Assembly (NCBI GenBank): GCA_040752895.1
Contig: JBFMHN010000001.1
Location: 475,213 to 539,212, forward strand
Reading direction: 5' to 3'
Length of the DNA: 64,000 nt
DNA from: Pseudomonadota bacterium
GTDB lineage: Bacteria > Pseudomonadota > Alphaproteobacteria > GCA-2746255
Made by a program: the position numbers and the translations under genes. The notes below the pieces were generated by a model. The model saw nothing but the letters and a program-made list of their open reading frames with translations. It made no database searches and was not told the origin of the DNA. Positions 50,063 through 53,905 of the stretch are shown piece by piece; positions within the stretch are counted from its first letter, which is position 1; the number at the start of each line of letters is the position of its first letter.

Positions 50063-50983
50063 CTATATGGGGTCCCAGTGAAAGACGTCCGCCGATCGCT
50101 CGAGCGGGTAGAGCAATTCGCGAAATGCCTTCGGCAATTCCTCGGCGATTTTCTCCGGCGTCCAACCTTCGGCGCGGTGCATTCTTGCCAACGGCCTGGG
50201 CTGGCTCATCAGGAAAATCTCGTTCTTCCGCACGGCGAAGATTTGACCCGAGACGTCCTTGGCGGCGTCACTCGCCAGAAAGACCGCCATCGGCGCAATT
50301 TTCGCCGGCGTCATCTGTTTCAGTTTTTCCACTCGGGCTTTTTGTTCCGGCGTTTCCGTCGGAATCGAATCGATCATGCGGCTCCAGGCGAAGGGAGCGA
50401 TGCAATTCGAACGGACGTTGTAGCGCGCCATGTCGAGCGCAATCGAACGCGAAAGGGCCGCGATACCAAGCTTGGCCGCCGAATAATTTGCCTGACCGAA
50501 ATTTCCGATGAGTCCCGAGGTCGACGTCATGTGAACGTAGGCACCACTTTCCTGATCGCGGAAATGAGGAGCGGCGGCACGCGAGACCAGGAAAGAGCCG
50601 TTCAAATGAACGTCGAGGACGGCGCGCCATTCCGCCTCTTCCATCTTGTGAAAGATGCGATCCCGAAGGATACCGGCGTTGTTGACAACGCCATCAATCC
50701 GCCCGAAGGCACCCACGGCGGCGGCCACCATGCTCTCAGCGCCCTTGGCTTCCGTCACGCTGTCGGTATTGGCAATTGCCTTGCCGCCAAGCTTACGGAT
50801 TTCATCGACTACCCGTTCGGCCGCCGTCCTATCGTCACCCTCGCCGGCAAGCGAAGCGCCGACGTCGTTGACGACGACGGACGCCCCCGAAGCGGCCATA
50901 AGAAGCGCTATCTCCCGGCCAATGCTACGGCCAGCACCGGTGACGAGAACCGCTTTACCGGTCAGCATCTTGCCCGTTTCCAT
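50063..50983 (-). CDS. short-chain dehydrogenase, 3-hydroxyacyl-CoA dehydrogenase-like
   Basis: NAD(P)-dependent SDR of 306 residues. It has the cofactor loop TGAGRSIGREIA, VVVNDVGASL, NNAGILRDR, the catalytic Ser in SGLIGNFG and YSAAK, and a C-terminal extension of about 60 residues (ARMHRAEGWTPEKIAEELPK), resembling peroxisomal multifunctional hydroxyacyl-CoA dehydrogenase domains. Context suggests it acts with the acyl-CoA genes facing it (51.4-53.9 kb). It ends 14 bases before galU, so it could also be read into the sugar genes. Confidence 0.88.
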   Translation of the reverse strand: METGKMLTGKAVLVTGAGRSIGREIALLMAASGASVVVNDVGASLAGEGDDRTAAERVVDEIRKLGGKAIANTDSVTEAKGAESMVAAAVGAFGRIDGVVNNAGILRDRIFHKMEEAEWRAVLDVHLNGSFLVSRAAAPHFRDQESGAYVHMTSTSGLIGNFGQANYSAAKLGIAALSRSIALDMARYNVRSNCIAPFAWSRMIDSIPTETPEQKARVEKLKQMTPAKIAPMAVFLASDAAKDVSGQIFAVRKNEIFLMSQPRPLARMHRAEGWTPEKIAEELPKAFRELLYPLERSADVFHWDPI

Positions 50984-51179
50984 GCACTCCCTGCCTTTTC
51001 GCCTCAGCGCCGGACTTTAATGTTCGCGCGGCTCCGACTTGTCAAGCAGCCCGATCCGCCGGTCTTTTCAGCCAAATCCTTGTTTACACTTATTACGCGA
51101 GTATGTAGGCGAAAATTCCTTATTTATTAGGAGATTTTTAATAAGTTTGGATAAATATTACTCACATTACTCAACCATA

Positions 51180-51365
51180 ACGTGTTGAGTTGCGGCGGAG
51201 CGAAGCGGGCCGGAATTCGAGACGAAAACGGCTCTTCGCCGAGCGCATTTCACCTTCGGAGGAAACGCGAAGAAATTCTCACCCCCCTCGTCGGTAACCT
51301 CTCCCCCCTTAAGAGAGTCCGACATCCTTGAAGGCCCCGCTACCCCCCTAGCGGGGCCTTTTTTT
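51180..51365 (+). ncRNA. candidate small noncoding RNA or leader ending in an intrinsic terminator
   Basis: A rightward transcript is implied by the terminator at its end, yet no gene lies upstream on this strand. Within it are pairs able to form hairpins: GCTC/GAGC around 51231-51244, CTTCG/CGAAG around 51254-51272, and a composite stem GTCGG...CTCTC/GAGAG...CCGAC (51290-51323). The order of stems ending in a terminator would fit either a small RNA or an attenuator controlling the MaoC operon. The 5' end is not defined. Confidence 0.3.
51331..51365 (+). terminator. strong rho-independent terminator
   Basis: AAGGCCCCGCTA (51331-51342) pairs in full with TAGCGGGGCCTT (51349-51360) around CCCCCC, followed by seven T. 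Twelve base pairs, mostly G-C, ending 70 bases before the MaoC start. On the opposite strand no T tract follows, so the direction is rightward. Confidence 0.85.
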
Positions 51366-51434
51366 CTGCGTCGCGCGGCTTGCCTTCCTTTCCACCACCC
51401 CCTAGCATCGGCCGCGATTAAGTCTGGACTTTCG

Positions 51435-51869
51435 ATGCCGAAACGGCGGATGACGATATACACCCCTTTCAAGCAACTCGAAGTCGGCCGCGTTTTTCCC
51501 GTTCCTCCGGCAAGCTTTTTCGTCACAGAGGAAATCGTGGACGCCTATCTCGAAGCAACGGGAGACGATACGCCCGCTTTCCGGAAAGGCGCCGAACCCC
51601 GCCCGGCGCCGCCGACGCTGGCCGCCGTCTATATGCTCGACGCACTCGGCCATTTTCGCAACCCGCCAGGCGGCATTCACACCAAGCAGAGCTTCAAATT
51701 CCATCGGCCGGTCTATGTCGGCGACAGGCTGGAAAGCGAGGTGCGCATTCTCGAAAAATATTCAAAAAAGAACCGGGACTACGTGGCAATGGAGATCGTG
51801 ACCCGGAATCAGCGCGGCGAATTGGTCACGAGCGGCATCATCACGCGAATTTGGGGTAAGGAGCCGTGA
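51435..51869 (+). CDS. MaoC-like hot-dog protein, probably noncatalytic partner subunit
   Basis: A 144-residue hot-dog domain protein of the MaoC N-terminal type. The segment corresponding to the hydratase motif reads VDAYLEATGDDTPAFR: the Asp is present but the His of the catalytic N-P-x-H is missing. It carries FHRPVYVGDRLESEVRI. In steroid and cholesterol degradation, heteromeric enoyl-CoA hydratases pair one such incomplete chain with a complete one; the next gene encodes the complete chain. The start could be ATG 51435 or 51450. Overlaps the next gene by GTGA. Confidence 0.85.
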   Translation: MPKRRMTIYTPFKQLEVGRVFPVPPASFFVTEEIVDAYLEATGDDTPAFRKGAEPRPAPPTLAAVYMLDALGHFRNPPGGIHTKQSFKFHRPVYVGDRLESEVRILEKYSKKNRDYVAMEIVTRNQRGELVTSGIITRIWGKEP

Positions 51870-52300
51870 CGGACGGACACGGTAAAAGCCACGGCGGAAC
51901 CCGGCTCGGTGACCCCATCCCGGAACGTCGCCGGATCGTGACCCAGGCCGAGATCAATCGCTACGCCGAGGCTTCGGGCGACCGCAACCCGCTTCATACC
52001 GACCCGGAATTCGCCAAACAAACGCTTTTCCAACGTACGATCGCCCATGGGCTGCTGATCCTTTCTTTCCTTTCCCAGGCGATGGCGGCATGGGATTGGA
52101 AAGGTTGGGCGTTCGGAGGCGCGCTTGACGTTGCGTTCCTCGGTCCCGTCTATCCTGGCGAGGAAGTCGTCGTCCGCGGCAAGGTCATCGCTTTCGAGGT
52201 GGCCGAGGATGGCGTTTACGCCATTTGCGAGGTCGCCTGCGCGGTCGGCGAACGGACGGTCATCGCGGGCACGGCGCGGCGCCGGCTCGCCGACGCATAA
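51866..52300 (+). CDS. MaoC-family enoyl-CoA hydratase subunit with catalytic residues
   Basis: Hot-dog domain protein of 144 residues with the full hydratase motif YAEASGDRNPLHTDPEFA (Asp39, His44) and IAHGLLILSFL. Adds water across a 2-enoyl-CoA. It starts at GTG overlapping the stop of the incomplete MaoC protein, so both are made in equal amounts, consistent with a heteromer. The thiolase-like gene begins 12 bases on. Confidence 0.9.
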   Translation: MTDGHGKSHGGTRLGDPIPERRRIVTQAEINRYAEASGDRNPLHTDPEFAKQTLFQRTIAHGLLILSFLSQAMAAWDWKGWAFGGALDVAFLGPVYPGEEVVVRGKVIAFEVAEDGVYAICEVACAVGERTVIAGTARRRLADA

Positions 52301-52312
52301 GGAAAGAACATC

Positions 52313-53482
52313 ATGGGAAACCGTCGGCCGGTGATCGTCGGGATTGCGGACGCGCCTCTGGAGAACGGGGTCCTTGCCGGCGGCGCGAACGATCTCGAGA
52401 TCCAGGCGCGGACGGCCAAGGCCGCCCTGGACGAAGCCGGTCTTACGCTTTCCGATGTGGACGGGCTTTTCACCGCCGGCCTCTGGGGCATACCGGGACC
52501 CGGCCAGTTCCCCACCCTGGCCCTGTCCGAATATCTCGGCATTCGGCCCAAGTTCAGCGACGGCACGAATATCGGGGGTTCCGCCTTCGAAGCCCATCTC
52601 GGGCACGCCGCGATGGCGATCGAGGCCGGTCTCGTCACGGTTGCCCTCATCACCTATGGCAGCACCCAAAAGAGCCTGAAGAGTCGCGACCTGAAAGGCC
52701 GCCCGGCCGTGCTGAATTTCCAGTTCGAAACGCCCTATGGCCTTCCCACGCCGGTCGGCGCCTATGCGATGGCTGCCCGCCGCCATATGCACGAATACGG
52801 CACCACCCCGGAAGCCTTGGCCGAGATCGCCGTCGCGACGCGGAAATGGGCCATGAAGAATCCGGCCGCCATGATGCGCGAGCCTTTGACCGTGGACGAC
52901 GTGCTGAAAAGCCCGATGATCGCCGACCCGCTGCACCTTCTCGATTGCTGCCTGGTGACGGATGGCGGCGGCGCCATCGTGGTAACGACGGAGGCCCGCG
53001 CCCGCGATCTCAAGACGAAGCCGATCCATGTCCGCGGCCACGGTGAATCGCAGACCCATCTTACGATCGCCGCGATGCCGGACCTAGCTACCCACACGGC
53101 GGCGGTCGAAAGCGGCAAGCGGGCGTTTGCGATGGCCGGCATCGGCCCGGACGGCATCGACGTCGCCCAGATCTATGATTCCTTTACGATCACCGTCCTG
53201 CTGACGCTGGAGGCGCTCGGCTTCTGCGGCCGCGGCGAAGGTTCGGCTTTCGTGGCAAAAGGCCGTACGGCGCCGGGTGGCGCCTTTCCGATGAACACGA
53301 GTGGCGGCGGCCTCTCCTACGCCCATCCCGGCATGTTCGGGATATTTCTCCTGATCGAGGCGGTCCGCCAGCTTCGCGGCGAGGCCGGTGAACGCCAGGT
53401 CGAGGGCGCGCGAACGGCAATCGCCCACGGCACCGGCGGCGTCCTGTCCAGCGGGGCAACCTGCATCCTTTCGAATCATTGA
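52313..53482 (+). CDS. thiolase-fold protein lacking the nucleophilic Cys (SCP-x/Ltp2-like)
   Basis: A 389-residue thiolase-superfamily protein of the lipid-transfer-protein group. The N-terminal region where thiolases place the reactive Cys reads SDGTNIGGSAFEAHLG (residues 82-97): no Cys. The later GGGLSYAHPGMFG keeps a His. Proteins of this kind with a DUF35 partner can be retro-aldolases, as in Ltp2 with ChsH2 in actinobacterial steroid side-chain cleavage; other homologues are simply annotated as thiolases. Here the DUF35 gene follows seven bases after the stop. I infer aldol cleavage of a 3-hydroxyacyl-CoA rather than thiolysis. Confidence 0.88.
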   Translation: MGNRRPVIVGIADAPLENGVLAGGANDLEIQARTAKAALDEAGLTLSDVDGLFTAGLWGIPGPGQFPTLALSEYLGIRPKFSDGTNIGGSAFEAHLGHAAMAIEAGLVTVALITYGSTQKSLKSRDLKGRPAVLNFQFETPYGLPTPVGAYAMAARRHMHEYGTTPEALAEIAVATRKWAMKNPAAMMREPLTVDDVLKSPMIADPLHLLDCCLVTDGGGAIVVTTEARARDLKTKPIHVRGHGESQTHLTIAAMPDLATHTAAVESGKRAFAMAGIGPDGIDVAQIYDSFTITVLLTLEALGFCGRGEGSAFVAKGRTAPGGAFPMNTSGGGLSYAHPGMFGIFLLIEAVRQLRGEAGERQVEGARTAIAHGTGGVLSSGATCILSNH

Positions 53483-53488
53483 GGCGTC

Positions 53489-53905
53489 ATGACCGAAAAG
53501 CCGCTCCCCGTCGTCGATCCCTCAACCCGTCCTTTCTGGGAGGCGGCGAAGGCGCACCGCCTCGTCCTCCAACGCTGCCGGGACTGCGGGACGCATATCT
53601 TCTACCCCCGGGCAAATTGCACGGCTTGCTATTCCGACCGGCTGGAATGGAAAGAAGCCGGCGGCGAAGGGACGGTCTATAGCTATACGATCGCCCACCG
53701 GCCAGCCGGACCCGCCTTCAAGGAAGACCTTCCCTACGTCGTCGCGATCATCGCGCTGGAGGAAGGCCCCCGGATTTTGAGCAATATCGTGACGAAAGAC
53801 ATGGCAAACGCCGCGGCAAACGTCGCCATCGGCAGCAAGGTCCGTGTTATCTTCGAGGACGTGACGGAGGAAATCACGCTCCCGAAATTCGTTCTAACGG
53901 CCTAA
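53489..53905 (+). CDS. DUF35/OB-fold zinc-ribbon protein, partner of the thiolase-like enzyme
   Basis: A 138-residue protein with a rubredoxin-like zinc ribbon (Cys30, Cys33, Cys44, Cys47 in QRCRDCG and NCTACYS) and an OB-fold (GEGTVYSYTIAHRPAG, LPYVVAIIALEEGP). Such proteins bind acyl-CoA and are obligate partners of thiolase-fold aldolases or ketosynthases. Its position immediately after the Cys-less thiolase supports a complex. Start ATG 53489. Confidence 0.92.
   Translation: MTEKPLPVVDPSTRPFWEAAKAHRLVLQRCRDCGTHIFYPRANCTACYSDRLEWKEAGGEGTVYSYTIAHRPAGPAFKEDLPYVVAIIALEEGPRILSNIVTKDMANAAANVAIGSKVRVIFEDVTEEITLPKFVLTA

Follow-up and report, generated by a model that had tools for sequence, protein, structure and literature searches.

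What does a thiolase-fold protein do when a pair of glycines stands where its nucleophilic cysteine should be? The question is raised by a compact row of four genes, all on the + strand, in a 64,000-nucleotide stretch of DNA from a Pseudomonadota bacterium (Alphaproteobacteria; GCA_040752895.1, contig JBFMHN010000001.1, positions 475,213 to 539,212). The whole of this stretch is referred to here as the window. The four genes are the following:

51435..51869, + strand: MaoC1, hot-dog protein lacking the catalytic His (Pfam FAS1_DH_region; alignment; AlphaFold2 (AF2) model)
51866..52300, + strand: MaoC2, catalytic hot-dog hydratase by its motif (Pfam MaoC_dehydratas, 85.7 bits; PDB matches including HadB)
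52313..53482, + strand: thiolase-fold protein, Cys-less candidate retro-aldolase (PRK06158; Pfam Thiolase_C_1; tree; active-site table; AF2 model)
53489..53905, + strand: DUF35 partner, C4 zinc ribbon plus OB fold (Pfam zf-ChsH2 and OB_ChsH2_C; PDB matches)

All of these domain matches (FAS1_DH_region, MaoC_dehydratas, Thiolase_C_1, zf-ChsH2 and OB_ChsH2_C) lie above the Pfam cut-offs. The sequences make it rather probable that the row encodes a two-step acyl-coenzyme A (CoA) module, in which an asymmetric hydratase would be followed by a Cys-less retro-aldolase working with a Tyr/His pair.

Active site and relatives of the thiolase-fold protein

The protein matched the NCBIfam family PRK06158 (NF004811, ‘acetyl-CoA acetyltransferase’) with 505.1 bits against a curated cut-off of 421, and its NCBI name would accordingly be ‘acetyl-CoA acetyltransferase’. 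Its sequence reads TNIGGS (Gly88-Gly89) where thiolases have C-x-x-G. In an alignment of 50 family members from several phyla, 35 positions were invariant, among them Gly88, Gly89, Tyr288, Asp289, Phe291 and His338. Position 290 was occupied by Ala in 26 members, by Ser in 23 and by His in one; the window protein has Ser290 (YDSF). The Cys-bearing SCP2-type thiolases aligned alongside carry the Cys together with HDxF, or QD in a few cases, whereas the family has YDxF. From the set of residues that marks classical and SCP2 thiolases, the nucleophilic Cys and HDxF are absent, and only the catalytic His of the GHP motif is retained, as His338, in 50/50. This His aligns with Tyr344 of TcLtp2 and Gln352 of CtSal.

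The missing nucleophile had been noted in a preliminary description of this DNA, made from the sequence alone, and a reactive Cys elsewhere in the active site was named there as grounds for abandoning its proposal. The larger alignment shifts the Cys of the true thiolases by four columns relative to the family-only alignment. The family-only alignment and the HMMER alignment to CtSal agree on Gly89, and the window protein has no Cys at this place in either alignment. Conserved Cys columns were found at positions 108 (Val in the window protein), 212, 213 and 305. Cys212-213 occurs as CC in both Ltp2 and the Cys-type thiolase BbsB, and Cys305 in Sal, Ltp2 and BbsB. Since these residues are common to aldolases and a Cys-type enzyme, none of them looks like a substitute, and no displaced nucleophile is apparent from the alignment.

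Tyr302 of YDCY serves as base and Cys304 as acid in CtSal, which has Gly at the thiolase Cys position, while TcLtp2 uses Tyr294 of YDHF as base and Tyr344 as acid (PMC12329534). With the aldolase superclade formed by Sal, Ltp2 and IpfD, the window protein shares the Gly in place of Cys, the Tyr of YDxF/Y, the DUF35 partner and its position in the clade. It has Ser290 and His338 instead of the two Ltp2 residues (His296 of YDHF and the acid Tyr344), and Ser290 instead of the catalytic Cys304 of Sal. Tyr288 and His338 are the only invariant candidate pair, His338 being the sole invariant candidate at the place of the acid. Together they probably represent a third active-site design beside those of Sal and Ltp2. 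Mixed active sites were observed in two other loci, one with YDCF and a His at position 338 (L014, match 1501-2559) and one with YDHF and His338 (L099, 10001-11137); by their sequences they are possible intermediates between the aldolase classes.

A maximum-likelihood tree was calculated from 60 sequences, in which the trait columns were kept and CtSal and IpfD stood on long branches. The clade with YDxF and no Cys was split from the Cys thiolases with full support (100/100; 200/200 of the bootstrap trees examined). It includes TcLtp2, CtSal and IpfD, the three members with a reported retro-aldol function. The partial sequence of BbsB was placed among the Cys-type thiolases. The window family forms a 40-row clade of its own (98/94), with the PDB entry 4U4E inside it; the branching order of Sal, Ltp2 and the window family is weakly supported (83/32). 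IpfD was found on pIBU218 between ipf dioxygenase and ligase genes, an assignment that rests on the position of ipfD beside dioxygenase, OB-fold and AMP-binding genes. It reads YDAF and carries Tyr where the window protein has His338; a reported retro-aldolase can therefore have at position 290 a small residue that is incapable of serving as the acid. TcLtp2 did not group with the window family but with a second thiolase-fold protein of pIBU218 (L179, 4939-6503), which is Ltp2-like (YDHF, Tyr at the acid position). The gene of the latter lies about 11 kb from ipfDE and is adjoined by an OB-fold partner, an enoyl-CoA hydratase-related gene and CaiB.

The AF2 model of the thiolase-fold protein was of good quality, with a predicted local distance difference test score (pLDDT) of 88.9 and one disordered loop (residues 126-142). 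The equivalent loop is disordered in the crystals of CtSal, TcLtp2 and BbsB and has been linked to bulky substrates (PMC12329534). The best VIA match was CtSal (Z 51.6, root-mean-square deviation 2.1 over 372 residues), and TbSLP and 4U4E were also at the top; the Z values of these three differ by no more than about 1, and a common fold is no proof of function. Identity to 4U4E was 54-56% in the structural alignment. By sequence, CtSal and TcLtp2 are the nearest solved relatives after 4U4E, and both are among the best by structure.

Partner proteins and genomic setting

The two hot-dog genes were found as first reported, overlapping (by 4 bp) and with only the second carrying the full motif; coordinates and alignment agree on this. 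MaoC2 has the complete R-hydratase motif (SGDRNPLH and AHG), which is conserved in pairs from other phyla. At the same places MaoC1 reads TGDDTPAFRK and APPT, with no NPxH and no catalytic His. One subunit with SGDxNPxH adjacent to one without the His is also the pattern of HadAB and of ChsH1-ChsH2(MaoC). The AF2 model of MaoC1 (pLDDT 86.5) matched HadA of HadAB and both ChsH1-ChsH2 chains among the MaoC folds. MaoC1 is probably the substrate-binding half of a hydratase, comparable to HadA and the MaoC part of ChsH2, and MaoC2 would be its catalytic counterpart, comparable to HadB and ChsH1. ChsH1-ChsH2 is known to combine an inert substrate-binding half with a catalytic one, and HadAB is built likewise.

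The zinc-ribbon DUF35 protein noted right after the thiolase gene is borne out by both of its domain matches and by a wide comparison, as a DUF35 gene lies within 150 bp and on the same strand in 79 of the 80 loci. Its zinc ligands, read from the sequence, are C-x2-C-x10-C-x2-C, which differs from the C3H1 finger of the Sal type, and its PDB matches were ShyDUF35 and ChsH2DUF35. In five Comamonadaceae loci (L093, L094, L096, L102 and L111) the DUF35 and thiolase-fold domains form one polypeptide. An apparent fusion of DUF35 with a short-chain dehydrogenase (SDR) proved to be a DUF35-thiolase fusion. The Ltp2 aldolase of C. testosteroni depends on DUF35, which remains functional when it is detached from MaoC (PMC12502768); the split genes observed here agree with this.

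Neighbouring genes were located by profile searches on six-frame open reading frames (ORFs). Of the 53 loci that have 5 kb of sequence on each side, 25 have an acyl-CoA dehydrogenase nearby on the same strand and 23 a MaoC protein. An asymmetric pair near the thiolase-fold gene, with one His half and one APP(T) half, was seen in at least 11 loci, which belong to Pseudomonadota, Bacillota and Actinomycetota. The annotated neighbours on plasmids are CoA ligases, acyl-CoA dehydrogenases, CoA transferases and MaoC proteins; those in other genomes also include CaiB CoA transferases and uptake proteins. In Polaromonas JS666 a ligase annotated for cyclohexanecarboxylate adjoins the family gene. Judged by gene content, these neighbourhoods are catabolic and not steroid-specific.

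In the window, the translations identify the flanking genes as housekeeping genes, with pyrE, guaA and guaB downstream and UDP-glucose metabolism upstream. The same four genes stand in the same order and place, before pyrE, in two sister species, G002 and G003 (two of three congeners), while the thiolase-fold gene was not found in the third, G001, whose assembly is only 91% complete. Strong purifying selection acts on the thiolase-fold gene. With about 0.12 nonsynonymous (dN) and 1.2 synonymous (dS) substitutions per site (dN/dS about 0.1), it was the most constrained among the genes compared, and its ratio was not above that of the neighbouring pyrE. The shared order, this ratio and the residues invariant in 50/50 place the layout beyond chance. 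The host genome (2.29 Mb, 99.87% complete) has the window protein as its sole Thiolase_C_1 protein, together with four strong Cys-type thiolase matches, seven acyl-CoA dehydrogenases and seven AMP-binding proteins.

Some further observations concern the surroundings. In G002 an extra acyl-CoA dehydrogenase (L141, 2741-3973) lies between DUF35 and pyrE, directly after DUF35, which would give a dehydrogenase-hydratase-aldolase series there; its closest counterpart in the acyl-CoA dehydrogenase loci fetched from the genus shows about 40% identity. Upstream of MaoC1, a 203-nt stretch (51170-51372) folds better than 200 of 200 shuffled sequences (z -3.3) and has no Rfam match. It contains a strong intrinsic terminator just upstream of MaoC1 (13 pairs, stem 51330-51361), of which the part at 51318-51367 is kept upstream of MaoC1 in G002 and G003. 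Because it is conserved in both and stands after a chemotaxis-receptor-like ORF in G003, this terminator may belong to a small RNA or to a gene that has been replaced. Each of the four congeneric genomes was found to hold four B12-dependent mutase paralogues (in G000 outside the window, in C1, C3 and C5), one of them in a frame of more than 1100 residues. This suggests methylmalonyl- and ethylmalonyl-CoA-type routes and an IcmF-like protein.

Proposed reaction and rival explanations

In the proposed sequence, MaoC1 and MaoC2 would form an asymmetric hydratase, presumably a heterodimer, which adds water across a 2-enoyl-CoA, with MaoC2 as the catalytic half and MaoC1 as the inert, substrate-binding half. 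The DUF35 zinc-ribbon protein, a separate polypeptide, would hold and complete the Cys-less thiolase-fold protein in a complex, and the latter would cut the 3-hydroxyacyl-CoA between Calpha and Cbeta in a retro-aldol reaction. Tyr288 would deprotonate the beta-hydroxyl, and His338, once the GHP His of a thiolase, would protonate the acyl-CoA enolate. Cleavage is predicted to release acetyl- or propionyl-CoA together with a ketone or aldehyde. The acid degraded is probably bulky, beta-branched or cyclic, which would stand in the way of ordinary dehydrogenation and thiolysis, and it is probably not a steroid. Retro-aldol cleavage is preferred because the protein shares a fully supported clade with Ltp2, Sal and IpfD, is devoid of the nucleophilic Cys, retains the base Tyr and is paired with a dedicated DUF35 partner. 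On the same grounds, the hydration and aldol cleavage put forward in the preliminary description are retained as the best reading, while its likeness to known enzymes holds in part: with both of their acids missing, the protein is neither an Ltp2 nor a Sal.

Several observations weigh against this proposal. The C304S variant of CtSal is dead (PMC12329534), so the loss of Cys304 calls for compensation by another acid in the window protein, a role that would fall to His338. A literature search found no activity for any member of the 40-row clade. No aldehyde dehydrogenase was seen near the 80 loci in a motif screen run without a positive control, which leaves an aldehyde product without a visible fate. 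The main doubt comes from an MFE-2-type dehydrogenase, which occurs in 16 of the 80 neighbourhoods and is divergent beside the window module; this would suit the formation of a 3-oxoacyl-CoA better. In the window this gene is:

50063..50983, - strand: divergent MFE-2-type SDR, possible helper (best PDB matches, the (3R)-hydroxyacyl-CoA dehydrogenases of MFE-2)

This enzyme keeps alive the reading of the module as a variant R-specific beta-oxidation. The MaoC pair and the SDR would then make a 3-oxoacyl-CoA, to be cleaved in a retro-Claisen reaction in which CoA or water would make the attack itself, assisted by His338, and no covalent intermediate with Cys would form. The retention of the thiolase GHP His in 50/50 agrees with such a role. 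However, no nucleophile is present, the change from HD to YD is common to the proven aldolases, and the protein shares their clade. In addition, four strong Cys-type thiolase matches are present in the genome. The SDR itself is missing from most neighbourhoods; its orthologues, 79-81% identical, occur elsewhere in the genomes of all three congeners. They are not next to the module in G002 and G003, and G001, in which no thiolase-fold gene was found, has one too. It was therefore rejected as a strict part of the module, and by these comparisons it is a possible helper that is not tied to it within the genus. Taken together, cleavage of a 3-oxoacyl-CoA is considered unlikely.

Aldol reactions are reversible and MaoC1 and MaoC2 resemble the HadAB dehydratases, so the enzymes could also run forward, joining an acyl-CoA to a ketone or aldehyde and dehydrating the product in a biosynthetic pathway. 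The acyl-CoA dehydrogenases, CoA ligases, CaiB and uptake proteins in other genomes are catabolic, however, and no polyketide or lipid-assembly genes were seen among the neighbours, which makes this direction quite improbable. Even less is to be said for an Ltp2/Sal-type aldolase acting on scavenged steroid side chains. CtSal and TcLtp2 are indeed close in sequence and structure, but both defining acids are missing and the protein stands on a separate branch. The earlier remark that no other steroid genes are visible was extended, as KshA_C and BphC_D1 (HsaC-type) had no match in the host genome or the three congeners, and a steroid role in this genome was discarded. A catalytically dead scaffold left from a thiolase would explain the lost Cys, but is scarcely credible for a gene with such a low dN/dS and 35 invariant positions, Tyr288 and His338 included.

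The retro-aldol proposal may extend to the whole family. Tentatively, and with the odds somewhat against it, PRK06158-type proteins could be a third class, and a very widespread one, of thiolase-fold aldolases that depend on DUF35 and use a Tyr/His pair, general cutters of beta-branched and cyclic acyl-CoAs at the tertiary beta-alcohol where ordinary beta-oxidation stops. That a non-steroid substrate in an alphaproteobacterium would be new, as first claimed, is too strong, since IpfDE on sphingomonad plasmids has been reported as a retro-aldolase cleaving a non-steroid acyl-CoA (PMC9195938). The window family itself was detected (E <= 1e-100) in 67 of 289 sampled alphaproteobacterial genomes. 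As far as the literature searched shows, what is new is the active-site combination and the scale of a probably mislabelled family. If the proposal is true, a large family now bears the name of a reaction that it cannot carry out in the usual manner, and its members would be reclassified as C-C lyases; a gap in the charts of how bacteria break down branched and alicyclic acids would be filled as well. One thiolase scaffold would then have given rise to aldolases that differ in their acid, with at least three residues in this role (Cys in Sal, Tyr in Ltp2, His here), a picture that would be useful for biocatalysis.

Comparison with known systems

The closest solved structure, 4U4E, is an uncharacterised ‘thiolase’ of Sphaerobacter thermophilus from structural genomics; the literature search gave no paper in which it is named along with thiolase. 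It belongs to the same clade as the window protein and shares GG at the Cys site, YDSF and the His of SYTHPG.

Ltp2-ChsH2(DUF35) with ChsH1-ChsH2(MaoC), the steroid aldolase and hydratase (PDB 6OK1, 4W78), shares several parts with the window system: a Cys-less thiolase fold with a catalytic Tyr, a DUF35 partner, an asymmetric MaoC pair with one inert half, and an acyl-CoA dehydrogenase feeding that pair, for which a gene was seen here in the sister G002. In the window protein His296 of YDHF is replaced by Ser290 and Tyr344 by His338. MaoC1 and DUF35 are separate proteins, unlike the joined ChsH2, and steroid-ring genes are missing. Sal-Shy(DUF35), the bile acid aldolase of Comamonas testosteroni (PDB 9MYR), likewise has the thiolase fold, Gly at the Cys site, the catalytic Tyr of YDxx and a DUF35 partner. 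It differs in Cys304 (Ser290 here), Gln352 (His338 here) and the C3H1 ligands of Shy DUF35 (C4 here), and its hydratase is one Shy protein, in contrast to the separate asymmetric pair.

BbsAB, the benzoylsuccinyl-CoA thiolase (PDB 7PXP), also joins a thiolase fold to a DUF35 subunit with a zinc finger, but it has an HDAF motif, is placed with the Cys-type thiolases and cleaves a 3-oxoacyl-CoA. IpfD-IpfE, the retro-aldolase of the ibuprofen-CoA pathway on pIBU218 of Rhizorhabdus wittichii, resembles the window system in its Cys-less protein with a YDxF-type motif (YDAF), its OB-fold partner and its alphaproteobacterial host, and its substrate is not a steroid. IpfD is nearer to Ltp2 in the tree and has Tyr at the His338 position, and IpfE gave no zinc-ribbon match, unlike the window DUF35. 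IpfDE acts after a ring dioxygenase, whereas the window enzyme would act after a hydratase.

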